From the NCBI GenBank assembly GCA_002839765.1, contig PGYR01000003.1, positions 107,388 through 147,565 of the forward strand: a stretch of 40,178 nt of DNA. The letters are read 5' to 3'. The notes under the pieces are model-generated. The model had not been told where the DNA came from and did not search any database. It worked only from the letters and a program-made list of their open reading frames with translations. The translations under genes and the position numbers were made by a program. Positions within the stretch are counted from its first letter, which is position 1; every line of letters starts with the position of its first letter. Of the stretch, positions 1,198 to 38,852 are shown in pieces. The stretch is from Ignavibacteriae bacterium HGW-Ignavibacteriae-4 (lineage in GTDB: Bacteria; Bacteroidota; Ignavibacteria; Kapaibacteriales; UBA2268).

Positions 1198-1578
1198 TTA
1201 AACTCTACGTCTTTTAGGTGGTCTACACCCATTATGTGGGACAGGAGTTTTGTCAATTATAGAATGAATTTCTAGACCCGAGTTAGAAAGTGCTCTTACA
1301 GCAGCTTCACGTCCGGAACCTGGACCTTTGACTACGACGTCAACTTTACGTAGTCCCATATCGAAAGCTTCTTTACCAGCTAATTCAGCTGAAATTTGTG
1401 CAGCGTATGGAGTGTTCTTTTTTGATCCTTTAAAACCATTTTTTCCTGAAGAAGACCAAGCTAAAGTATTTCCATAAGTATCAGTAATTGTTACTAGTAC
1501 ATTATTGAAAGATGCTTTAACAAATGCTTTTCCATGGACATCCGATACGACTTTCTTTTTTTGTCTTTTTTTAGCCAA
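1198..1578 (-). CDS. rpsK: 30S ribosomal protein S11
   Basis: 126 residues. The core matches S11 throughout, including [25 protein letters not shown] and the basic C-terminus [13 protein letters not shown]11 sits on the platform of the small subunit and contacts mRNA upstream of the E site. The reading frame has no ATG upstream. The start that gives the conserved MAKKRQKKK is a TTG at 1578, with a weak AGGT about 9 nt before it. It is 16 nt downstream of the rpsM stop. In many bacteria rpsD follows; here rpoA does. Confidence 0.95.
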
Positions 1579-1594
1579 CGTGGATACCTACTTA

Positions 1595-1969
1595 TTATTT
1601 AGTTACTTTTTTCTTGTTTGCGATAGTTTTTCTTCTACCCTTACGAGTACGTGCGTTAGTTTTAGTACGTTGTCCACGGCATGGTAATCCTCTTCTATGA
1701 CGAAGACCACGGTAACATCCGATATCCATCAAACGCTTAATGTTCATCTGAGTTTGAGATCTCAATGCCCCTTCAACTCTGTAGTTTTCTATGATATCAC
1801 GGAGAGTTGCAACTTCTGCATCTGACCAATCATGTACTTTTTTACTTTCGTCGATACCAGCTTCAGCTAAAATGTCTTTAGCTATTTTATTACCTATACC
1901 AAATAGGTAAGTCAAACCGATAACGCCTCTTTTATTCTTTGGTAAATCTACACCAGCTATACGTGCCAT
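1595..1969 (-). CDS. rpsM: 30S ribosomal protein S13
   Basis: 124 residues, full length. Shows the S13 opening [14 protein letters not shown], the helix-hairpin-helix-like segment [14 protein letters not shown], and the [20 protein letters not shown] motif region before a lysine-rich tail that reaches toward the P-site tRNA. S13 lies in the head of the small subunit and forms bridges to L5. A good Shine-Dalgarno AGGAG lies at 1976-1980, six nt before the ATG. It lies between rpmJ and rpsK in standard alpha-operon order. Confidence 0.97.
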
Positions 1970-1981
1970 AATCTTCTCCTA

Positions 1982-2098
1982 TTACCCTTGACGTTGTTTA
2001 AATCTTGGATTTTTCTTGTTTATTATATATACTCGTCCCTTTCTCTTTACGATTTTATCGTCCGGGTTACGCTTTTTAACAGAAGCTTGTACTTTCAT
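1982..2098 (-). CDS. rpmJ: 50S ribosomal protein L36, zinc-free (C-minus) type
   Basis: A 38-residue gene too short for most ORF cutoffs. Translation from the ATG at 2098 starts [20 protein letters not shown] and ends NPRFKQRQG with a TAA at 1982. The ends match L36, but none of the cysteines of the zinc-ribbon form is present: the CxxC site is replaced by RNPDDK and the second half reads VYIINKKNP. It is therefore the zinc-independent paralogue type, as also common in Bacteroidota. It lies between infA and rpsM, its usual place. Confidence 0.95.
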
Positions 2099-2113
2099 TT
2101 TAAAAACCTAATA

Positions 2114-2332
2114 TTATTTGTATCTATATACTATACGACCTTTTGACAGATCATAGGGCGACATTTCTACTCTTACTTTATCGCCTTGTAATATCTTTAT
2201 AAAGTGCATACGCATTTTGCCAGAAATATGTGCATGTATAACGTGCCCATTTTCGAACTTCACTTTAAATTGTGTATTAGGTAGAGTTTCCTCTACTATA
2301 CCATCTAACTCTATTAACTTTTGTTTTGCCAT
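2114..2332 (-). CDS. infA: Translation initiation factor IF-1
   Basis: 72 residues, exactly the family length. A single S1-like OB fold: [20 protein letters not shown], then [24 protein letters not shown] and [22 protein letters not shown], all hallmark IF-1 segments. IF-1 binds the A site of the 30S subunit during initiation. It follows secY after 70 nt; the adk and map genes often found between secY and infA are not here. The 70 nt gap shows no strong structure. Confidence 0.97.
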
Positions 2333-2402
2333 TTTCTCTTTTCTACTATTTCAGTACCGTAAACTAACGAATTTCTATTTAGATAATTGCATTTGTGCAG
2401 TA

Positions 2403-3752
2403 CTAAAATCCACCTATTCCAGCTCTACCTTTCATCTTACCAGTCTTCATGAAACCATCATAATGTCTCATCATCAAGTGTGATTCGATTTGTTGCAATG
2501 TATCTAATCCAACACCAACTATGATAATCAAACTAGTTCCACCAAAAAACGATGCAAACAATGAAGTGATTCCAAATATGTTTTGAACGAAAGTTGGCAA
2601 TATTGCTATCAATGCTAGGAATATTGCACCTGGTAAAGTTATTCTAGTTAATATTTTCTCAATGTAATCTGCCGTCGGTGCACCCGGTCTAATACCCGGT
2701 ACGAATCCACCTTGTCTTTTCATATTATCAGCAATTTCTTTCGGATTGAAAATAATTGCAGTATAAAAGAAAGTAAACAATACAACCATAATGAAATATA
2801 CGAAAGCATATCCAAACGAAGATGGATTAAACCAAGCAGCAAATCCTTGCATAGCTGGTACATTCGGGAAGAATGAAGCAATAGTATTAGGTATAAACAT
2901 TAATGATTGAGCAAAGATAATAGGCATAACACCAGCAGTATTCACTCTAAGAGGAATAAATTGTGTAGTACCACCAAATACTCTTTTACCAACTTGTCTT
3001 TTAGCATACTGCACTGGTATTCTTCGTGCCCCTTGGGTAATCAATACAATAGAAGCAATTATACCAAATAAGAATGCAAATATAATAATCTCTAAGAACC
3101 AAGGTCTAGAACCAACTGAAATCAGTTCCCATTCTTGTAAAAGGGCAGCAGGCAATGCAGCAATAATACCGATAAAGATAATCAAAGATATACCGTTACC
3201 AACACCTCTTTCTGTTATTTGCTCACCTAACCACATCAAGAACACAGTCCCTGCAGTTAATACTATAATAGTAGATAGGAAGAATAAAACACCAGCATCA
3301 GGAACTACTGGAGCTCCATTAGCAGCTGTTTGGTTAACTAATTTAACCGCAACACCTATTGACTGTAAACCCGCTACAAAAACAGTAGCAAATCTTGTCC
3401 ATTGATTAATCTTTCTTCTACCATCTTCACCCTCTTTTTGCATTTTCTGAATTTGAGGGAAAACAACACCAGCTAATTGAAATATAATTGATGATGTTAT
3501 ATAAGGCATGATACCTAATGCAAAAATTGCAGCATTAGAAAACGCACCACCCACAAATAGATCAAAGAAGCCAAACAAATCGTCAGCTCCGCCAGTTCCA
3601 ATAGTTGATTTCAATACATCTACATCTATACCAGGTATAGTTATGAATGCACCTACTCTTACAACCAATAAAATTAGTAGGGTAAAGAATATTCTTTTTC
3701 TTAATTCTTCAATCTTGAATATATTACTAAAAGTCTCTCCAAATTTAGCCAT
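2403..3752 (-). CDS. secY: Preprotein translocase subunit SecY
   Basis: 449 residues with ten predicted transmembrane helices, the channel-forming subunit of the Sec translocon that works with SecE (also in this window, 34174-34365). Recognisable segments include the first helix followed by the plug region (GIDVDVLKS), GIMPYITSSIIFQL, QWTRFATVFVAGLQSIGVAV, and the cytosolic loop FNPKEIADNMKRQGGFVPGIRPG. The start overlaps the end of rplO by 8 nt (3745-3752), so translation of the two is probably coupled. Confidence 0.97.
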   Translation of the reverse strand: MAKFGETFSNIFKIEELRKRIFFTLLILLVVRVGAFITIPGIDVDVLKSTIGTGGADDLFGFFDLFVGGAFSNAAIFALGIMPYITSSIIFQLAGVVFPQIQKMQKEGEDGRRKINQWTRFATVFVAGLQSIGVAVKLVNQTAANGAPVVPDAGVLFFLSTIIVLTAGTVFLMWLGEQITERGVGNGISLIIFIGIIAALPAALLQEWELISVGSRPWFLEIIIFAFLFGIIASIVLITQGARRIPVQYAKRQVGKRVFGGTTQFIPLRVNTAGVMPIIFAQSLMFIPNTIASFFPNVPAMQGFAAWFNPSSFGYAFVYFIMVVLFTFFYTAIIFNPKEIADNMKRQGGFVPGIRPGAPTADYIEKILTRITLPGAIFLALIAILPTFVQNIFGITSLFASFFGGTSLIIIVGVGLDTLQQIESHLMMRHYDGFMKTGKMKGRAGIGGF

Positions 3753-4206
3753 TAAGATTTACCGCCCCCCCGGCTGTTTCTATCTTTTCTTTCGCCGTAG
3801 AGCTAAATTTGTCAGCAGTTATAGTAGCAGCCGATGTTAGATTACCATCACCTAATACTTTCAGTGGAATTCTCTTTTTAGTGATTAATCCAACAGCTAT
3901 AAGTGCAGCTTTATCTATATTTTTAGCATCTACTTTATTTTCATCTATTAATAATTGTAATTGGCCTAAATTCACAACAGAAAACTTCAATGAGAATTTG
4001 TTATGGAATCCAAATTTAGGAACTCTACGATTGATTGGCATTTGCCCACCTTCGAAACCTATTCTAATAGTAGCACCAGAACGAGATTTTTGTCCTTTAT
4101 GCCCTTTACCAGAAGTTCCACCGTAACCAGAACCTTCACCGCGACCAACTCTTTTTTTACTATGTGTAGAGCCTTTCGGCTTTATTAAATTTCCAACATG
4201 TTTCAT
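3745..4206 (-). CDS. rplO: 50S ribosomal protein L15
   Basis: 153 residues. The glycine-rich N-terminal half, with KRVGRGEGSGYGGTSGKGHK and GFEGGQMPINRRVPKFGF, is typical of L15, which threads into 23S rRNA. The C-terminal globular part (about 75-153) is less conserved. Follows rpmD by 20 nt and overlaps secY by 8 nt. Standard spc-operon place. Confidence 0.96.
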   Translation of the reverse strand: MKHVGNLIKPKGSTHSKKRVGRGEGSGYGGTSGKGHKGQKSRSGATIRIGFEGGQMPINRRVPKFGFHNKFSLKFSVVNLGQLQLLIDENKVDAKNIDKAALIAVGLITKKRIPLKVLGDGNLTSAATITADKFSSTAKEKIETAGGAVNLNG

Positions 4207-4226
4207 TTTAAAACCGGTAATATTTT

Positions 4227-4412
4227 TTATTCACTAACTTGTTCTACTTTCACTAAATGTCTAACAACATTAACCATACCTCGAGTTTGCTCATTATCAG
4301 GGAGTACATTAGAGTAATGTGGTCTTCCCAATCCTAGTGCTTCGATTGTTAATTTATGTTTGCTTTTAGACTTAATGCAACTTTTTATCTGAACTACTTT
4401 TATTTTAGACAT
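4227..4412 (-). CDS. rpmD: 50S ribosomal protein L30
   Basis: 61 residues, normal for the bacterial short form. KVVQIKSCIKSKSKHKLTIE and ALGLGRPHYSNVLPDNEQTR followed by GMVNVVRHLVKVEQV match L30. It sits between rpsE and rplO with 16 and 20 nt gaps, as in most spc operons. Some bacteria lack this protein, so its presence is worth recording. Confidence 0.95.
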   Translation of the reverse strand: MSKIKVVQIKSCIKSKSKHKLTIEALGLGRPHYSNVLPDNEQTRGMVNVVRHLVKVEQVSE

Positions 4413-4428
4413 GATTTTCTCTTTAAGA

Positions 4429-4932
4429 TTATCCGTAGATTACTTTTTCTACTGAAATGCCTCTTCTAGAAGCAACTGAATTAATGTCTTCAACTCTTTG
4501 TAACCCGTTCAATGCTGCTTTTATAGCATTATGCGGATTAGAAGAACCAAGATTCTTAGTTAATACATCTTGAATACCAGCCAATTCTAATACAGCACGG
4601 ATACCACCAGAAGCGATAACGCCAGTACCAGGAGTAGCAGGTTTGATTAATACTTTACCAGCTCCATATTTACCCGTCACTTCGTGAGGGATAGTTCCAT
4701 TTTGAATGGTAACACTGATAAGACTTTTCTTTGCAACATCGGTAGCTTTTGAAATAGCATCTACAACTTCTGATGCTTTACCTAGACCGTAACCAACGTG
4801 ACCATTGCCATCGCCAACTACTACTAGAGCAGAGAAATTAAATCTACGTCCACCTTTTACTACTTTCGCTGTTCTTCCAACGTAAACTAGTTTATCATTT
4901 AAGTTTAATTCTGAAGCTTTTACTTTGCTCAC
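4429..4932 (-). CDS. rpsE: 30S ribosomal protein S5
   Basis: 167 residues from a GTG at 4932. An in-frame TTG at 4938 is an alternative, but the Shine-Dalgarno AGGAG at 4942-4946 is 9 nt from the GTG and only 3 nt from the TTG, so I choose the GTG. The N-terminal double-stranded-RNA-binding-like domain contains [33 protein letters not shown] and the later [13 protein letters not shown]; the C-terminal part contains [16 protein letters not shown]5 helps form the mRNA entry pore and has roles in decoding fidelity. Confidence 0.95.
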
Positions 4933-4959
4933 TTTCAAATACTCCTTTGAGTGATCTTT

Positions 4960-5331
4960 TTAAAATTGAAGTCCACCTTCTCTCGCAGAATCAGCTAATG
5001 CTTTAACTCTACCGGTGTATAAATTACCGTTTCTATCGAAACGTACTTGCTTTATATCTTTTGCTACTGCTCTTTCGGCAATTGCTTTACCTACTAATTG
5101 ACTCAATTGTGTTTTAGTCATATCAGATTTAATCTGAGATTTAACTTCTGGATCAATTGTAGATGCTGATACTAGAGTTACTGCGTTCGTATCATCAATT
5201 ATTTGTACAAATATATTTGTCAAACTTTTGAAGACTGAAAGACGAGGTACTGAAGCAGTTCCACGAATCTTAGACTTGATACTTCTTTTTCTTCTAGCTT
5301 TTCTTTTGTATTTCAAACTTGTAGTATTCAT
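4960..5331 (-). CDS. rplR: 50S ribosomal protein L18
   Basis: 123 residues. The basic N-terminus (KYKRKARRKRSIKSKIRGT) precedes RLSVFKSLTNIFVQIIDD, a pattern characteristic of L18, and the C-terminus reads FDRNGNLYTGRVKALADSAR followed by EGGLQF. L18 binds 5S rRNA together with L5 and L25. It is followed by rpsE and preceded by rplF, in standard order. Confidence 0.96.
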   Translation of the reverse strand: MNTTSLKYKRKARRKRSIKSKIRGTASVPRLSVFKSLTNIFVQIIDDTNAVTLVSASTIDPEVKSQIKSDMTKTQLSQLVGKAIAERAVAKDIKQVRFDRNGNLYTGRVKALADSAREGGLQF

Positions 5332-5354
5332 AACTTCTCTAACTATTATAAGTT

Positions 5355-5894
5355 TTATTTAGATGCAGACTTACCTGCTTTTCTTCTAATTATTTCACCA
5401 TCGTATCTTACGCCCTTACCTTTGTAAGGTTCTGGTGGTCTAAGTTTTCTTAATTTAGAAGAAACTTCTCCAACCAATTGTTTATCTGAACCAGAAATCA
5501 CAATAGATGTTTGCGTTGGAGTTTGGAATTCAATACCATCAGGAGGAATAACTAAGATAGGATGTGAAAATCCTAAACTCAATACTAGTCTAGTGCCTTT
5601 TAATTCAGCTCTATAACCTACACCTTCTATGATAAGAGTCTTTTTGAACCCTTCGTGAACACCATTAACAGCATTGTTAATCATCGAACGAATCATACCA
5701 TGCTTAGATTTAACGGACTTAGTCTCGTTAGCTCTAGTTACTGTTATTACATTATCATTTATTTCTAATGAAATACCTTCAGGTAGATTTACTGCTCTTT
5801 CGCCGTTAGGGCCTTTTGCAGTCACAGTTCCTTCATTATGAGTTACTGATACCTTTTCGGGAATCTCTATTATTTGTTTACCTATTCTAGACAC
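5355..5894 (-). CDS. rplF: 50S ribosomal protein L6
   Basis: 179 residues, two alpha/beta domains as usual. Begins MSRIGKQIIEIPEKVSV from a GTG start at 5894 and ends with the rRNA-binding signature PPEPYKGKGVRYDGEIIRRK plus a short basic tail. L6 sits near the factor-binding site and sarcin-ricin loop. It follows rpsH by 18 nt. The GTG start has no nearby in-frame ATG. Confidence 0.96.
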   Translation of the reverse strand: MSRIGKQIIEIPEKVSVTHNEGTVTAKGPNGERAVNLPEGISLEINDNVITVTRANETKSVKSKHGMIRSMINNAVNGVHEGFKKTLIIEGVGYRAELKGTRLVLSLGFSHPILVIPPDGIEFQTPTQTSIVISGSDKQLVGEVSSKLRKLRPPEPYKGKGVRYDGEIIRRKAGKSASK

Positions 5895-5912
5895 TAGATT
5901 TCTCCAATTATA

Positions 5913-6308
5913 TTACCATACGGTGCAAATTACTTCGCCACCGACATTATGCTTTCTAGCTTCTTTGTCTGTCAATACACCTCTAGAAGTAGAGATAATT
6001 GCCATACCTAAGCCATTCTTTACTCTCGGTATCTGATCAGAAGGAACATATATCCTTCTACCAGGCTTACTTACTCGAGTAATTTGATTGAAAGCAGGCT
6101 TTTTCTTAAAATATCTTAATTCTACTTTGATTTCGCCTTGTACACCACTCTCTACTTCTTGGTATCCTGATATGAAACCTTGTTCAAGAAGGATTTTAGA
6201 GAGAGCTACTTTCATATTAGAACGAGGTATGTTCACATATCTGTGACCTGCATTACCACCGTTTCTAATTCTTGTCAAGAAATCTGCTATTTGATCTGTT
6301 ACTGCCAT
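5913..6308 (-). CDS. rpsH: 30S ribosomal protein S8
   Basis: 131 residues. MAVTDQIADFLTRIRNGG at the N-terminus and the C-terminal STSRGVLTDKEARKHNVGGE with EVICTVW are diagnostic. S8 binds helix 21 of 16S rRNA; in E. coli it also represses its own operon at the L5 gene. I see no obvious helix-21 mimic near rplE here, but I could not fold the RNA. Gaps to rpsN and rplF are 18 nt each. Confidence 0.97.
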   Translation of the reverse strand: MAVTDQIADFLTRIRNGGNAGHRYVNIPRSNMKVALSKILLEQGFISGYQEVESGVQGEIKVELRYFKKKPAFNQITRVSKPGRRIYVPSDQIPRVKNGLGMAIISTSRGVLTDKEARKHNVGGEVICTVW

Positions 6309-6326
6309 AGTTTTTAACCTAAGAAA

Positions 6327-6596
6327 TTACCAACTTGCTTTTTTAATTCCGGGCAACTTGCCCTCTAACGCCAACTGTCTGAATACGTGTCTCGTTAGCC
6401 CATATTTACGATAGACTGCTCTACTTCTGCCAGTTACAGAGCATCTGTTAACTACTCTAGTAGGAGATGAGTTCTTAGGAAGTTTTTGTAAACCCTCAGA
6501 ATCTCCTGCTTTTTTCAAAGCTGCTCTCTTCTCTGCGTATTTAGATACAAGTCTTTTTCTTTTCTCGTTTCTAGCTATTACACTTTTTCTAGCCAT
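6327..6596 (-). CDS. rpsN: 30S ribosomal protein S14, zinc-free long type
   Basis: 89 residues with [17 protein letters not shown] at the start and [19 protein letters not shown] near residue 60. This is the longer, C-minus S14: the two CxxC pairs that bind zinc in the 61-residue form are absent, and only one cysteine remains. S14 is in the 30S head and its C-terminus ends [10 protein letters not shown] as expected. Gene order rplE-rpsN-rpsH is standard. Confidence 0.97.
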
Positions 6597-6611
6597 TCTA
6601 AAAGTACCTGT

Positions 6612-7244
6612 TTATTGATTTTTCGTTTTAAATGGAAATCCAAATTCAGTAAGAAGAGCTCTTGCTTCTTCATCAGTTTTAGCTGTAGTTACGAATGTAA
6701 TATCCATACCAGTTATTCTGTTTACTTTATCTACGTCTATTTCCGGGAATATAATCTGTTCTTTTATACCTAAAGTATAATTACCTCTACCATCGAAACT
6801 TTTATCGGGAAAACCTCTAAAATCTCTGATACGTGGAGCTGTGATATTTACGAATCTATCCAAGAACTCATACATTCTTATTTTTCTTAGAGTAACAGAA
6901 GCACCTATTGGCATACCGTCTCTAAGTTTAAAATTTGAGATTGCTATTTTAGCTTTTCTTACTACAGGTCTTTGACCAGTTATAAGCTCTAGCTCATTGA
7001 TAGCAGCTTGCAATAATTTAGGATCTTGAGTTGCTCTACCAACACCCATATTCAAGCTTATTTTTTTCAATTTCGGCACTTCCATTACAGATTTGTAATT
7101 AAACTTTTTCTGCATTGCCGGAACTACATTTTCTTTGTAATGGACTTGGAATTGTGCTACTGGAATTTCTTCGTTCCTTGCAGCGTCTTCAAATCTTTGT
7201 CCTTCAAATGCGAATATGTCTCTTTTAGATATCGCTTTTGCCAT
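6612..7244 (-). CDS. rplE: 50S ribosomal protein L5 with N-terminal extension
   Basis: 210 residues against about 180 for typical L5. The conserved core begins around residue 30 ([32 protein letters not shown]) and runs to [21 protein letters not shown]5 binds 5S rRNA and bridges to S13. The first 28 or so residues ([20 protein letters not shown] onward) are extra. The ATG at 7244 is 25 nt after rplX, and there is no ATG in frame between it and the core, so the extension is probably translated unless a GTG or similar codon is used. Confidence 0.95.
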
Positions 7245-7269
7245 GACTTTTATATCCCGTGAATTATCT

Positions 7270-7500
7270 TTATTTCGATTGTATCAATTTGACATTAGAG
7301 TAGTGCAACGGTGCACTTTTAGTTACTCTTCCGCCTTGTTGGTTTTGTTGACTTGGTTTCTCGTGTTTGATTTTCTCATTCACGCCTTCAACTAAAACTT
7401 TCATTTTGGAAGGGTATATTTCTAATACTCTTCCTTCTTTTCCTTTATCAACACCAGTAATTACTTGTACCGTGTCGCCTTTCTTTATCTTTAGTTTCAT
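7270..7500 (-). CDS. rplX: 50S ribosomal protein L24
   Basis: 76 residues, on the short side for L24 (about 100 in E. coli). The KOW motif is clear: [20 protein letters not shown] near residues 3-22, and [20 protein letters not shown] follows. The shorter C-terminus ends [14 protein letters not shown]24 is an assembly initiator for the large subunit. It follows rplN by 17 nt. Confidence 0.95.
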
Positions 7501-7517
7501 TTTCTAGACTCTTCTTA

Positions 7518-7886
7518 TTAAAGTACTTCGGGAGCAAGAGATATAATTTTCATATATTGCTTCTCACGAAGCTCTCTAGCAACTGGTCCAAAGATACGTG
7601 TTCCTTTCGGATCACCTTTTTGATTTAAAATAACAGCAGCGTTGTCGTCAAATCTTATATAAGAACCATCACTTCTTCTTTGTTCTTTAGCAGTTCTTAC
7701 TATGACAGCTTTTACGACTTCACCTTTTTTGATACCACCATTAGGTATTGCTGACTTTACTGAGGCAACTATTATGTCGCCGATGCGAGCATACTTTTTA
7801 CCATGTCCACCTAACACTCTGATGCATCTAATCTTTTTTGCACCCGAATTATCGGCAACAGCTAAGTTTGTTTCTTCTTGTATCAT
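7518..7886 (-). CDS. rplN: 50S ribosomal protein L14
   Basis: 122 residues, exactly typical. [33 protein letters not shown] and [20 protein letters not shown] followed by GPVARELR are universally conserved L14 segments. L14 forms intersubunit bridges near helix 44. It lies 17 nt downstream of rpsQ, in standard spc order. Confidence 0.98.
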
Positions 7887-7903
7887 TTTAGTTTCCTATA
7901 AAT

Positions 7904-8188
7904 TTACTTAGCTTTCTCAAGAATTTCAATAAGATTCCATCTCTTAGTTTTGCTAAGTGGTCTGATCTCTTGAACTTTTACTATATCTCCAATACCGCAC
8001 TCGTTATTTTCATCGTGTGCCGTAATCTTCTTAGATTTTTTATAGTACTTTCTATATAACGGGTGAGCTATTTGTCTCTCCGTTTTTACAGTAATAGTTT
8101 TATCAGCTTTATCTGATACTACTATTCCTTGAAATACTTTTTTTCTTGAAGATGTTTCTACGTTTGCATCTTTTATTTGCTCTGCCAT
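7904..8188 (-). CDS. rpsQ: 30S ribosomal protein S17
   Basis: 94 residues, with an OB fold: [39 protein letters not shown] and [18 protein letters not shown]. About 14 residues precede the usual start of homology, a slightly longer N-terminus than the E. coli protein. S17 is a primary 16S rRNA binder. It follows rpmC by 9 nt. Confidence 0.96.
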
Positions 8189-8197
8189 AGCTTTTCC

Positions 8198-8404
8198 TTA
8201 CTTAGAACTTCTCTGTCTTAAAATAGTTTTCATTTTTGCAATATCACGTCTTAGGATTTTCAAATAAGTAGTATCCTGCAACTGCTTTAAAGCATGTTGA
8301 AACTTTTGCTTTGCAAGTGTTTCTTGCGATTCCTCTACCAAGTTTACTAATTCTTGGTCTGATAATTCTCTTAAATCTTTTGCTAATCTTGGTTTCATTA
8401 CCAT
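8198..8404 (-). CDS. rpmC: 50S ribosomal protein L29
   Basis: 68 residues forming the usual two-helix hairpin (KDLRELSDQELVNLVEESQE and FQHALKQLQDTTYLKILRRD). L29 lies at the exit tunnel, next to L23. The ATG at 8404 overlaps the rplP stop by one base (TAATG arrangement), pointing to coupled translation; a second in-frame ATG at 8398 (MVMK) is a possible alternative start. Confidence 0.95.
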   Translation of the reverse strand: MVMKPRLAKDLRELSDQELVNLVEESQETLAKQKFQHALKQLQDTTYLKILRRDIAKMKTILRQRSSK

Positions 8405-8823
8405 TAACCTCTTAGGTCAACACGTGATACAAATTTCGTTTTAACAGGTAGTTTATGAGCAGCCAAACGCATTGCTTCTTTTGCTCTTTCTTCTGTTACA
8501 CCATCTATCTCAAACAATATTCTGCCGGGTCTTACTACAGCTTCCCAACCTTCTGGGGAACCTTTACCTTTACCCATTCTAGTTTCAGCAGGTTTCTTAG
8601 TAAATGGTTTGTCAGGAAATATTCTTATCCATACTTTACCATCTCTTCGTAGATATCTGTTAATTGCAATACGGGCAGATTCTATTTGTCTATTATTAAT
8701 AGACACTGGCTCCAAAGCTTTTAATCCAAAAGATCCAAAAGTTACTAATGAACCTCTTATCGCTTTACCTTTTCTTCTGCCTCTATGCGTCTTTCTGTGT
8801 TTTACTCTTTTCGGGCTTAACAT
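8404..8823 (-). CDS. rplP: 50S ribosomal protein L16
   Basis: 139 residues. [20 protein letters not shown] opening, [20 protein letters not shown] in the middle, and [20 protein letters not shown] near the C-terminus are all L16 signatures. L16 helps position A-site tRNA and is near the peptidyl transferase centre. It ends in the one-base overlap with rpmC. Confidence 0.97.
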
Positions 8824-8843
8824 TGTATTGTTCCAATTTTTTC

Positions 8844-9476
8844 TTAAACAGCGGTTGTTATATCGCCTTTACAAATCCAAACTTTCACTCCAATAGCACC
8901 ATATATAGTGTGTGCAGTAGCAGTACCGTAATCGATCTCTGCTCTTAACGTATGAAGTGGTGTACGTCCTTCTTTGTATTGTTCTGTTCTTGCCATTTCA
9001 GCTCCGCCCAATCTACCAGAAGCCATAACTTTTATTCCTTCGGCTCCCATTCGAGTAGCAGCTGATACTGCTTGTTTTAATGCTCTTCTGAATGATATTC
9101 TACCTTCTAGTTGTTGAGCAATATTCTCAGCAACTAATATAGCGTCTAATTCAGGTCTTTTGATTTCATTTATTAGTAACTTTACATCTTTACCAGTTAC
9201 TTGCTTGATTTCTTCTTCTAATTGAGTAATATCTCTTCCTGAACGTCCGATTATAACACCAGGTCTTGAAGTATTGATAGTTACTCTTAATTGTTTAGCC
9301 GTTCTTTCAACAATTATTCTAGATATTCCAGCACCTTTCTTTCTACTTTTGATATAGTTTCTTACTTTTATATCTTCAAGTATCTTTTCAGCCATATTTT
9401 TCTCATCGAACCAATTGGCATCGTGGCTTCTATTTATACCTAGTCTTATCCCTATTGGATTAGTTTTTTGTCCCAA
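8844..9476 (-). CDS. rpsC: 30S ribosomal protein S3
   Basis: 210 residues (E. coli 233, longer at its tail). The KH domain has the GxxG loop at residues 77-80 ([12 protein letters not shown]), and the C-terminal domain has [20 protein letters not shown] and [16 protein letters not shown]3 is part of the mRNA entry channel. The start giving the invariant MGQKTNPIG is a TTG at 9476; no in-frame ATG lies between it and the rplV stop just upstream. GAGGGG lies about 8 nt before. Confidence 0.95.
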
Positions 9477-34365: not shown

Positions 34366-34390
34366 AAAAAACTCTTTATTTAAAAGTTAG

Positions 34391-34463
34391 CACGGGTGGT
34401 AGGACTTGAACCCACAGCCAATGGTTTTGGAGACCACTACTCTACCAATTGAGCTACACCCGT
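34391..34463 (-). tRNA. tRNA-Trp (anticodon CCA)
   Basis: A 73 nt cloverleaf on the minus strand. Acceptor ACGGGTG pairs with CACCCGT, the discriminator is G, the D arm starts GCTC, anticodon loop CTCCAAA, and the T-loop TTCAAGT. CCA is not encoded. It lies just upstream of secE, 29 nt after tRNA-Thr. Confidence 0.97.
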
Positions 34464-34492
34464 GTGTAAGTCCATGTTTCTATCCTTTCTTG

Positions 34493-34565
<73 letters not shown>

Positions 34566-34580
34566 CACACACATTATATA

Positions 34581-34611
34581 GAAAAAAAATTGAGATATTT
34601 AGTATCTCAAT
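34581..34611 (-). terminator. Terminator-like hairpin between tRNA-Gly and tRNA-Thr
   Basis: A perfect 10 bp stem (34611-34602 with 34596-34587), loop of five, followed on the minus strand by eight T (34588-34581, partly within the stem). By shape this is an intrinsic terminator for the tRNA-Tyr/tRNA-Gly transcript. No clear promoter of the type seen elsewhere lies between it and tRNA-Thr; the TATAAT at 34577-34572 is only 6 nt before the tRNA. It may act as an attenuator. Confidence 0.7.
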
Positions 34612-34656
34612 TCCTAATTTCTTTTTCGCTGGCTACTCAATACACGATAGTTTTAG

Positions 34657-34729
34657 AGCGGGAGACGAGACTCGAACCCGCGACCCTCAGCTTGGAAGGC
34701 TGATGCTCTACCAACTGAGCTACTCCCGC
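34657..34729 (-). tRNA. tRNA-Gly (anticodon TCC)
   Basis: 73 nt on the minus strand. Acceptor GCGGGAG/CTCCCGC, anticodon loop CTTCCAA, T-loop TTCGAGT, discriminator T. The T stem has two G-U pairs. CCA is not encoded. It is 24 nt downstream of tRNA-Tyr. Confidence 0.97.
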
Positions 34730-34753
34730 ATTCTATGTAATATCTAATATTTG

Positions 34754-34836
34754 TGGGCAGGGAAGGATTCGAACCTCCGTAGGGATTTCCCAGCAGATTT
34801 ACAGTCTGCCCCGGTTGACCGCTTCGGTACCTGCCC
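34754..34836 (-). tRNA. tRNA-Tyr (anticodon GTA)
   Basis: 83 nt on the minus strand, with the long variable arm expected of bacterial tRNA-Tyr. Acceptor GGGCAGG/CCTGCCC, anticodon stem GCAGA/TCTGC with loop CTGTAAA, T-loop TTCGAAT, discriminator A. CCA is not encoded. First gene of the tRNA/secE unit, about 12 nt from the predicted transcript start. Confidence 0.97.
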
Positions 34837-34994: not shown

Positions 34995-36125
34995 ATGAAT
35001 TTTTTATTCAAATTTTTTGTAAAAGATCAATTAATTTTCAATTCTAGTTGGGAAGACCCTGCTATTGACCGGAAATTATTAGACTTAAATTTTGAAAGTG
35101 ATGTACTCACGATCACTAGTGCCGGGGACAATTTACTCGACTATCTTCTCGATTCCCCACACTCTATCACTTCCGTTGATCTTAATCCTGCTCAGAATGC
35201 CCTTGCTGAATTCAAGATTGCAACCATCAAGAGTACTAGTTACGATACGCTTTTCGATTTGTTCGGATATGGTAAATATAAAGAAATTGAATCTTTACTC
35301 ACCGATTTGAAACCTCTCCTCTCCCCTACTGTATATCAGTTTTGGAAAAAGAAGAAACACTATTTTACTTCTAAGTTACCCTTTTATCACTATGGGACAT
35401 CGGGTCTAATCGCTCGGGGGTTCTACTATCACCTCAAATTGAACAAGAAACTTAGAAATAAAGTTTCTGAGATGGTTAACTGTCCGACACTAGAAGAACA
35501 ATATCTGCTACATTTAGAATTAGAGAAAATGCTCTTCGATAATTTTGTAGCAAAATTCTTACTTAAGAATAAATTTACACTTTCATTCTTAGGAATACCA
35601 GATGCACAAGCCACCTTAGTGGACGTCCACAATGACTACCATAAAATGTACGACTTTATAGTTGGTTCACTTAGAACTGTATTCAAAGAGTTTCCTTTAT
35701 CACGAAACTACTTCTGGTATCTATATATAAAGGGGCAATACTCCAAAGAAACATGCCCGAATTATTTGAAAGAAGAAAACTTTGAATTGCTAAAACAGAA
35801 TGTAGATAAAGTGAAGTTAGTTACTGATACTTTCTACAATGAATTAGTGAGAAGTCCAGACAACAGTTATTCGCACATCATACTTCTAGACCATTTCGAT
35901 TGGTTTTGGCAAGACAAAGAGACCCAACTAAAAGTATGGAAAGAAATAAAACGAGTTGCAAAACCAAAAGCCAAGATTCTCTTCCGCTCGGCAGCTAGCA
36001 ATAGGAACTACCTAATACCTGAGATTCAAAATGAGATAGATTATAGAGATGACCTGACCAGTGGCTTCACTAATCGTGGTAGAGTTGGCACTTATGGTAG
36101 TGTTAACTTTGGGGTTATGAGGTGA
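34995..36125 (+). CDS. BtaA-like/DUF3419 S-adenosylmethionine-dependent protein
   Basis: 376 residues. FNSSWEDPAIDRKLL (15-29), VLTITSAGDNLLDYLLDSP (37-55) and VDLNPAQNALAEFK (61-74) match the DUF3419/BtaA family. BtaA proteins transfer the 3-amino-3-carboxypropyl group of S-adenosylmethionine to diacylglycerol, the first step to betaine lipids (DGTS). The later region has HIILLDHFDWFW and ends NRGRVGTYGSVN. The methyltransferase BtaB, which completes the headgroup, is not next to it. Its TGA overlaps the GTG of the next gene by four bases. Family assignment is good; substrate here is inferred. Confidence 0.75.
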   Translation: MNFLFKFFVKDQLIFNSSWEDPAIDRKLLDLNFESDVLTITSAGDNLLDYLLDSPHSITSVDLNPAQNALAEFKIATIKSTSYDTLFDLFGYGKYKEIESLLTDLKPLLSPTVYQFWKKKKHYFTSKLPFYHYGTSGLIARGFYYHLKLNKKLRNKVSEMVNCPTLEEQYLLHLELEKMLFDNFVAKFLLKNKFTLSFLGIPDAQATLVDVHNDYHKMYDFIVGSLRTVFKEFPLSRNYFWYLYIKGQYSKETCPNYLKEENFELLKQNVDKVKLVTDTFYNELVRSPDNSYSHIILLDHFDWFWQDKETQLKVWKEIKRVAKPKAKILFRSAASNRNYLIPEIQNEIDYRDDLTSGFTNRGRVGTYGSVNFGVMR

Positions 36126-36883: not shown

Positions 36884-37387
36884 ATGAAATTGCTTAGATA
36901 TCTGATACTTATAGGTGTTATAAGCGCTATCTCACTCACCGCACAAGTGACTGATTTCCAGCGTGGATTAGAAGCTTTCAATGCTAAAAATTACGAAAAA
37001 GCCTTCCACAATCTTGAGAAATACGCGAGCGATTCCAATGATTGCATCTCACAATACATAGTCGGTTATTGCTACGCTGATACTAGCTTATCGATAGCGA
37101 ATGACTCACTAGCTGAGCATTATCTACTACTTGCATCAGAGCAAAAATACGGTAGAGCTATGGGGATGTTATCTGTCAGGTACTTCGAGAAGCAGAGTTA
37201 TGACAAACATTGGACTATTATGGCTTATGTATGGGCAGAGCTAGCAGCTTACTATGACCCAATTCAAAGTGTAAACTCTAGGAGACAAGTTATCAGAGAG
37301 TCACTAGACGAAAGCGAGATAGAGAAAGCTAAAAAGATAATTGAAGAAAAGAAAAAAATACTTGATCAGATAGAAATCTGTATGTAA
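36884..37387 (+). CDS. Secreted Sel1/TPR-like repeat protein
   Basis: 167 residues. N-terminal signal peptide (about 1-20, ending SLTAQ). Helical repeats follow: FQRGLEAFNAKNYEKAFHNL (TPR-like), SQYIVGYCYADT, AEHYLLLASEQKYGRAMGML (Sel1-like), then a segment with MAYVWAELAAYYDP and a basic helical tail. Such proteins usually act as scaffolds in the periplasm; no enzyme motif is seen. Convergent with the clpB-like gene. Function unknown. Confidence 0.65.
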   Translation: MKLLRYLILIGVISAISLTAQVTDFQRGLEAFNAKNYEKAFHNLEKYASDSNDCISQYIVGYCYADTSLSIANDSLAEHYLLLASEQKYGRAMGMLSVRYFEKQSYDKHWTIMAYVWAELAAYYDPIQSVNSRRQVIRESLDESEIEKAKKIIEEKKKILDQIEICM

Positions 37388-37413
37388 AAAAGGGAAAAGC
37401 TCTCACTTCTCCC
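37386..37413 (-). terminator. Intrinsic terminator after the ClpB-like gene
   Basis: Stem of eight pairs (37413-37406 with 37399-37392), six-base loop, then six T on the minus strand (37391-37386). One stem position is G-U in the minus-strand RNA and A-C in the plus-strand RNA, fitting selection on the minus-strand transcript. Located 13 nt after the stop of the ClpB-like gene, between convergent genes. Confidence 0.75.
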
Positions 37414-37426
37414 CTTTCCAAAGTTA

Positions 37427-38743
37427 TTAATTTCCCATTTTGAAGATAAACTTACCGTCTCCGTCAGTATCTACTATTATACTACCGTGTTCCTTCAACT
37501 CCCCTGACAGTACGTGCATAGAAAGTGGGTCGGTAATCTTTTTCTGAATTGTCCGCTTTATCGGTCTAGCACCATAATTCACATCATAGCTTATCTCAGC
37601 TAACCATTTTAGAGCTTCTTCTGTTATTTCTAATTTCAGATTCTGCTTTGCTAATCTCTTAGCTAGTATATCGAATTGCAGTTTAGCGATATTCGCTACT
37701 TCCTCTTTTAGTAATGGTTTGAACATCACTATTTCGTCTATTCTGTTGAGGAATTCTGGACGCATTACCTGCTTCATCTTCCCGACTATCTGCTCTCTCG
37801 CTTCTGCTAGCAAAGTCTCACGATTGTCCGAGTTCATCTCACTCATCTTGCTTGTCAAAAACTCTGTACCCAGATTCGATGTCATTATTATAATAGTATT
37901 CTTGAAATTCACTGTTCTGCCTTTGCTATCCGTCAAGCGGCCATCATCTAGCACTTGCAGCAAGATATTGAATACATCGGGATGTGCCTTCTCTATCTCA
38001 TCAAGTAGGATAACGCTATATTGCTTACGGCGAACATTCTCAGTTAGTTGACCGCCCTCATCATAGCCAATATATCCGGGAGGTGCACCTATCAACCGAG
38101 TCACGGAGAATTTATCCATGTACTCGCTCATATCCAATCGGATAATCGCATTCTCATCATCGAACAGATATTCGGCTAATGCCTTTGCTAGCTCGGTTTT
38201 ACCCACACCAGTTGTACCTATGAAAATGAAAGACCCTATCGGTCTGTTCTCATCTTGTAGGCCTGCCCTAGAGCGGCGAATTGAGTTAGAAACAGCGGAT
38301 ACAGCTTCTTCCTGACCGATTACCCTCTCGTGGAGCAATTCTTCCATTTTGATTAGCTTTTGCTTCTCACTTTCTATCATCTTAGATACGGGTATGCCCG
38401 TCCATTTGGAGACTATCTCGGCTATGTCTTCTTCGGTTACTTGCTCTTTCAGCAGGTGGCTGTTCTTTTGTAATTCTTCTAATTCTTGAGTCGCCTTTGT
38501 AACTCTTGACTCTAGCTGATGTATTTTACCATAACGGATTTCAGCTACTTTATCTAGATTGCCTTCTCTCTCGTATCTGTCGGCTTCTGTTTTCAACGAG
38601 TCTATATCTTCTTTGAATGTACGAATCTCATGGAGTTTCCCTTTCTCGGATTCCCACTTAGCTTTCAGCACGTTGCGTGTTTCTTTTAGATTTGATAGTT
38701 CTATTTCTAGTTCTTTTAGTCTTTCTTTGGTAGATGCACTCAT
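37427..38743 (-). CDS. C-terminal half of ClpB disaggregase (part of M domain plus AAA2 only)
   Basis: 438 residues, about half of ClpB (about 860). It begins inside the coiled-coil M domain (KERLKELEIELSNLKETRN, AEIRYGKIHQLESRV) and continues through the entire second AAA module: Walker A GTTGVGKT 176-183, pore loop GYIGY 223-227, Walker B VILLDE 244-249, sensor-1 TSN, arginine finger RPEFLNR 328-334, sensor-2 GARPIKR 391-397. The N domain and first AAA module are missing, and the 109 nt upstream does not encode them. All motifs are intact, apart from Thr for the usual Pro in Walker A, so it may be a functional short form or a young truncated gene. Ends at a good terminator. Confidence 0.85.
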   Translation of the reverse strand: MSASTKERLKELEIELSNLKETRNVLKAKWESEKGKLHEIRTFKEDIDSLKTEADRYEREGNLDKVAEIRYGKIHQLESRVTKATQELEELQKNSHLLKEQVTEEDIAEIVSKWTGIPVSKMIESEKQKLIKMEELLHERVIGQEEAVSAVSNSIRRSRAGLQDENRPIGSFIFIGTTGVGKTELAKALAEYLFDDENAIIRLDMSEYMDKFSVTRLIGAPPGYIGYDEGGQLTENVRRKQYSVILLDEIEKAHPDVFNILLQVLDDGRLTDSKGRTVNFKNTIIIMTSNLGTEFLTSKMSEMNSDNRETLLAEAREQIVGKMKQVMRPEFLNRIDEIVMFKPLLKEEVANIAKLQFDILAKRLAKQNLKLEITEEALKWLAEISYDVNYGARPIKRTIQKKITDPLSMHVLSGELKEHGSIIVDTDGDGKFIFKMGN

Positions 38744-38852
38744 CTTTCGTCTCTCTGTTTTAACTTTTATTTGTCTGTAATATAGACGATTTTCAGATTG
38801 AATAATTTTGCTGAAGTAAAATGAGAACCAAATGAAAGGTTCTACTTCTCCT

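Follow-up and report, generated by a model that had tools for sequence, protein, structure and literature searches.

A free-standing C-terminal half of ClpB and its complementary N-terminal gene in a member of Kapaibacteriales

The window analyzed here is a stretch of 40,178 nucleotides from the draft genome of Ignavibacteriae bacterium HGW-Ignavibacteriae-4 (GCA_002839765.1, contig PGYR01000003.1, positions 107,388 to 147,565), and the subject of this report is a gene in it that encodes one half of ClpB. An open reading frame of 438 amino acids with an ATG start was located on the minus strand between positions 37427 and 38743 and was identified as the C-terminal half (C half) by Pfam, by the NCBIfam ClpB model TIGR03346 and by alignment with E. 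coli ClpB. It matched model positions 431 to 848 of 853 with 622 bits, and the E. coli alignment began at residue 436, in agreement with a preliminary description of the window, which had proposed a stand-alone second half of ClpB starting in the M domain. The C half comprises M-domain helices 2 and 3, the tail of the small subdomain of the first nucleotide-binding domain (NBD1), and the entire second ATPase domain (AAA2).

The M-domain part (residues 3-91; 38471-38737, minus strand, as for all features of this gene) was predicted by AlphaFold2 to form a long helix at residues 3-59 and a second one at 63-91, followed by a helix at 104-115 and then AAA2 (31 sequences; mean predicted local distance difference test score 87.8, predicted template modeling score 0.73). 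Residues 92-132 (38348-38470), which in ClpB belong to the first AAA domain, were assigned by alignment with ClpB to the end of the NBD1 small subdomain and the NBD1-NBD2 linker (IAEIVSKWTGIPV), and the linker pattern was present in 28 of 30 split sets chosen for comparison. The AAA2 ATPase domain (Pfam AAA_2, residues 167-338; 37730-38245) contains Walker A GTTGVGKT (residues 176-183; 38195-38218), the pore loop GYIG (residues 223-226; 38066-38077) and Walker B LLDE (residues 246-249; 37997-38008), each found by motif pattern, and is followed by the AAA2 small subdomain (Pfam ClpB_D2-small, residues 344-423; 37475-37714). All 30 split sets had the Walker A, Walker B, pore loop and sensor 2 patterns of this domain, and 29 had the arginine finger; the window copy was included in every case, so that the complete catalytic set reported in the preliminary description was borne out. 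Foldseek matched the model to ClpB and ClpC structures. ClpA lacks a long M domain with motif 2, and that of ClpC is short; here the model showed two long M-domain helices, and the ClpB-type motif 2 pattern E[IL][RQ]YG was found in 30/30 C halves.

A separate gene for the N-domain and NBD1, a search for which the preliminary description had suggested, was found outside the window by searching with the NBD1 lid domain. It lies on another contig of the same genome (C21:13787-15097, plus strand; C, G, L and f numbers are our labels for contigs, genomes, loci and families) and encodes 436 amino acids with the Pfam domains Clp_N, AAA and AAA_lid_9; the protein covers the N-domain and AAA1 and extends through M-domain helix 1. 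This N-terminal half (N half) matched model positions 1-427 of TIGR03346 with 663 bits and aligned with residues 1-432 of E. coli ClpB. The two scores add up to 1285 bits, just above the whole-protein (equivalog) cut-off of 1232 bits, and neither half reaches this value alone; therefore, annotation by this model would miss both. All ClpB domains are present when the two genes are taken together, but not in the single chain of about 860 amino acids that TIGR03346 describes. The AAA1 Walker A occurred in two forms, GEPGVGKT and GDPGVGKT. The aromatic residue of the AAA1 pore loop (YRG or FRG) was Y in 8 of the 30 sets and F in 22, and ERRF occurred in 30/30; these motifs were checked by eye. Searches with AAA_2, AAA_lid_9 and both halves found no full-length ClpB in this 110-contig draft of 3.36 Mb, in which a gap is possible, and the next best match was a full-length ClpC on contig C66.

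The gene upstream of the C half encodes a protein with a type IX secretion system (T9SS) tail and ends 109 nt away; as described before, no remnant of NBD1 was seen in the intervening sequence. At the 3' side, a hairpin (37385-37420, minus strand; -19.2 kcal/mol, z -4.8) lies between the C half and a convergent gene at 36884-37387 and is likely a terminator common to the two. The terminator that had been proposed would correspond to this hairpin, although a simple consensus scan for terminators did not pick it up.

The position of the cut was examined from the ends of the two proteins. The N halves end with RQLEIERxALLREL and a few further residues, and the C halves open with a short leader followed by TxxRLxEIEKEL. 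With the serine of DSxP and a conserved tryptophan as landmarks, the spacing in 43 full-length proteins was 52 (n=15), 55 (n=22) or 58-64 (n=6) residues, and the two ends together gave at least 59 residues in 30 of the 30 split sets, among which four C starts were probably called too far upstream. Accordingly, no sequence has been lost at the cut. On the predicted helices, the cut lies between M-domain helices 1 and 2, and in E. coli numbering it falls at 432-436, within motif 1 (E410-Y455) and beside K431 and E432. In PMC4023160, K431 and E432 were used to probe the contact between neighboring M domains, motif 1 is described as contacting motif 2 of the next subunit head-to-tail, which keeps E. 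coli ClpB repressed, and deletion of motif 1 gave a hyperactive ATPase and cell toxicity. No additional sequence of the kind expected for trans-splicing or a split intein was seen at the cut ends, and no dedicated search was made for either. As a separate observation, the unsplit clpB genes of families f20, f23, f24 and f29 (L285, L317, L286, L298 and L318) carry 7-9 additional residues exactly at the cut point, which could be re-fusion scars or loop growth.

Of the 40 genomes nearest the window, 35 have the C half as a separate frame, one of these (G009) with an internal stop, and G025 and G034 have it in two pieces; the N half forms a separate frame in 35 genomes and is fragmented in G001, G014 and G017. 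When pieces were counted, both halves were present in 37 of the 40; the exceptions were G004 (82% complete) and G024, with neither half, and G014, with N pieces only. The split pair covers ten families of the window's order (f1-f10; f3 intact in G183) and four further families of its class (f13, f15, f19, f22). A survey of 119 genomes of the class gave a place for the C half in 109, the other ten having nothing above the level of ClpC. It was split in 44 of the 109, with frames of 396-610 amino acids, all in f1, f2, f9, f13, f15, f19 and f22, and the remaining 65 belonged to twelve other families, 64 in frames of 665-930 amino acids and one truncated at a contig end. No family mixed the two states, and the unsplit relatives carry ClpC alongside an ordinary full-length ClpB.

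Outside the class, families f34, f36 and f49 were split among the matches listed. This clade is very probably the green sulfur bacteria (Chlorobia); the UniProt entries ClpB 1 and ClpB 2 of Chlorobaculum tepidum are about 440 amino acids each, like the f36 halves, and are named as two ClpBs rather than as halves of one. In a sample of the phylum, both halves passed in 21/25 genomes of the order, 59/64 of f36 and 12/14 of the remaining split families, or 92/103 in total. The halves were far apart in single-contig genomes (positions 406605 and 2463326 in G033, 496718 and 2145834 in G303, 2197081 and 2175018 in G347). Among 80 listed loci from named genomes, an arbitrary subset in which several loci reach contig ends, 78 were continuous through the cut point and two were split ('bacterium Bin_11_3_sub' and 'Armatimonadetes bacterium SJ842').

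Both halves are under strong purifying selection. The ratio of nonsynonymous to synonymous substitution rates (dN/dS) was 0.024-0.049 for the C half (six pairs among four congeners) and 0.013-0.032 for the N half (three pairs among three congeners, with dS up to 4.8), dS being near saturation in several pairs.

A similar short sequence was found upstream of both genes. A candidate common promoter element, AAAATCGTCTA, lies 40 nt before the start codon of the C half (38783-38793, minus strand), and AAAACCGTCTA lies 34 nt before the start of the N half (C21:13743-13753 of the same genome, G000), so that a near-identical AAAA(T/C)CGTCTA precedes both genes, though on different contigs. In the order, CGTCT occurred 24-62 nt upstream of the start in 8/29 C halves and 13/38 N halves, and in the same range in 3/121 other genes of the same loci, 0/45 full-length clpB genes of the class and 1/76 of those of named genomes. 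Shuffled sequences gave an expectation of 0.3 for the C halves and 0.5 for the N halves, and the antisense strand gave 1/29 and 0/38, respectively. The element had been noticed in the window's genus, and other genera are the fairer test; without that genus the counts were 4/25 C halves and 10/35 N halves against 3/121 (p 0.017 and 1.8e-5, in kin genomes that are not independent). No CGTCT was present in this position upstream of the Chlorobia-like halves (0/12 N, 0/7 C). Genome-wide, a stricter pattern gave 4 sites against 7 for its reversed form, missing the C-half site, and its three other sites had no gene close downstream; a looser pattern showed no enrichment (18 sites against 37 for the reversed control), and by a post hoc count only two of the 18 lay within 160 nt upstream of an open reading frame of at least 80 amino acids, both being the ClpB halves. 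These results suggest common control of both halves in the window's order and by themselves are no proof of it. The element resembles the -10 sequence of some extracytoplasmic function (ECF) sigma factors.

In summary, ClpB is encoded here by two exactly complementary genes that are conserved, are under selection and have a common upstream element, in a genome without a detected full-length ClpB. The window gene is thus very probably the C-terminal half of a two-gene ClpB that reassembles with the N half into the usual disaggregase. The N-domain, AAA1 and M-domain helix 1 would come from the N half, and the window half would add the rest of the M domain (helices 2 and 3), the final segment of the AAA1 small subdomain, and AAA2. 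Both chains would contribute to the M-domain coiled coil as well as to the small subdomain of AAA1 and would fold together into one ClpB-like protomer, six pairs giving a hexamer that would hydrolyze ATP and thread aggregated proteins with the help of DnaK. Because AAA1 relies on the second chain to complete its small subdomain, the pair should be obligate.

A precedent is the Thermus thermophilus ClpB divided into an N-NBD1-M chain and an NBD2 chain, for which reconstitution in trans is reported (Beinker 2005, cited in PMC7343390 and PMC4239642), and by analogy the natural pair probably works in the same manner. Taken together, the two genes agree with the single-chain ClpB of E. coli and Thermus (TIGR03346) in the order of domains, in the possession of two AAA modules and an M domain, and in the motifs; they differ from it in giving two chains, with the cut between helices 1 and 2 of the M domain. 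Searches of an open-access library, whose coverage does not extend to subscription papers and preprints, found no naturally split ClpB.

Several observations weigh against a reassembling pair. The Thermus protein is a laboratory construct cut after the M domain, with the whole M domain on the NBD1 chain, whereas the natural split lies inside motif 1 and leaves most of the M domain with NBD2. A minority of the genomes in split families lack one half or have a broken one: G118 (f2) has a C half without an N half, and G024 (f2) has neither by search, which are possibly cases of loss or assembly gaps; the C half is in two pieces in G025 and G034 and is interrupted by an internal TAA in G009 and an internal TAG in G094. 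Draft assembly accounts for some of these cases, though not surely for all. CGTCT is also absent from most halves. The stop or frameshift-like breaks in the C halves at L028 (G009), L081 (G094) and L322 (G025), each in a single genome of a split family, may reflect sequencing error or real loss.

Among the other explanations, the one that survives best is that the C half has become a self-sufficient AAA2-only machine, the bacterial counterpart of the single-ring human CLPB (Skd3), and that the N half does something else. The preliminary description had also considered such a ring, a reading that takes no account of the conserved complementary N half and is not the best one. The C half does have its own start, a terminator-like hairpin and a complete set of AAA2 motifs, and single-AAA2 relatives exist, human CLPB being among the structure matches. 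Nevertheless, it keeps an M domain and an AAA1 small-subdomain tail, which would serve no purpose without AAA1, almost all relatives also retain the gene for the NBD1 side, and isolated ClpB NBD2 had neither ATPase nor disaggregase activity, which was attributed to absent hexamer formation (PMC7343390). Skd3 is likewise an AAA2-type ring ATPase without an AAA1 of its own; according to the same paper, however, it has ankyrin repeats fused to one AAA domain and could not be reconstituted in trans from two parts. Skd3 also has no partner chain. We regard an AAA2-only machine as unlikely.

A role of the half as helper or regulator of another Hsp100 ring is still less likely. The genome holds a full-length ClpC and no detected full-length ClpB, so that ClpC is the ring to be considered here, and no partner was detected for the once proposed pairing with full-length ClpB. 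Yet the unsplit relatives of the class pair ClpC with a full-length ClpB, which indicates that ClpC needs no half ClpB, and the two halves tile ClpB, not ClpC. A decaying or duplicated copy, as had also been put forward, would fit the broken or missing halves in G009, G025, G094, G118 and G024, but dN/dS of 0.01-0.05 in both halves, intact motifs in the 30 chosen sets and a spread across ten families of the order make this very improbable. The suspected assembly or sequencing artefact hardly deserves credence: although one apparent split (G191, f18) was indeed such a frameshift and was dropped from the split sets, three congeners hold the same free-standing C-half gene with 92-94% identity, which excludes an assembly break for practical purposes, and the split recurs in dozens of genomes, including single-contig ones with the halves far apart.

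The origin of the split was considered from gene order and phylogeny. In four genomes of f22 the halves are still co-linear on one strand and 5.7-7.6 kb apart; in other families they have moved apart. In two f22 loci that were fully read, L259 (G054; 1679-9274) and L260 (G063; 1418-7269), the halves are separated by five oppositely oriented genes, which by eye, with no family search, resemble a membrane protein, a methyltransferase, an epimerase, a glycosyltransferase and a PAS kinase; one of the two loci has a third gene group after the N half. This arrangement would be expected if a block of genes had inserted into clpB, and it is likely a relic of the fission.

Trees of the joined halves (FastTree and IQ-TREE quick) placed the split proteins in three places, requiring at least three changes, and the genomes of the window's phylum adjoined Rhodothermus and Pedobacter, which places the phylum as Bacteroidota in a broad sense. 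Approximately unbiased (AU) tests, with groups defined after the tree was seen, did not reject a single clade holding all 30 split rows (p 0.059; log likelihood 61.7 lower), a single clade uniting the two groups of the window's class (constrained log likelihood 17.9 higher; p 0.73), or the window's group joined with the f34/f36/f49 group (p 0.082). Our guess is two origins, and one to three are compatible with these tests. A more speculative proposal, which we regard as possible but rather doubtful, is that ClpB was cut repeatedly in evolution at the same motif 1 hinge, where the repressing contact with the neighboring subunit is made, giving heteromeric disaggregases of six chain pairs in which repression or assembly would be controlled by the association of separately encoded chains and not by one continuous M domain.

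Elsewhere in the window, a DUF3419 protein is encoded at 34995-36125 (PF11899, E 1.6e-98), a family that we take to be that of the BtaA betaine-lipid enzymes. Genes for tRNA-Trp, -Thr, -Gly and -Tyr lie on the minus strand at 34390-34836, upstream of two open reading frames that by eye resemble secE and nusG.

ClpB is the textbook single-chain double-ring motor. The split pair fills an annotation gap, the equivalog model missing both halves and a survey (PMC1887533) crediting C. phaeobacteroides as the sole Chlorobi species with a ClpB protein. A two-chain ClpB throughout a lineage would mean that living cells can do without a covalent linkage between the rings, and can do so over evolutionary time, so that its dispensability is not confined to the test tube, and natural split ClpBs would offer a clean test of M-domain repression and of ring-to-ring coupling.
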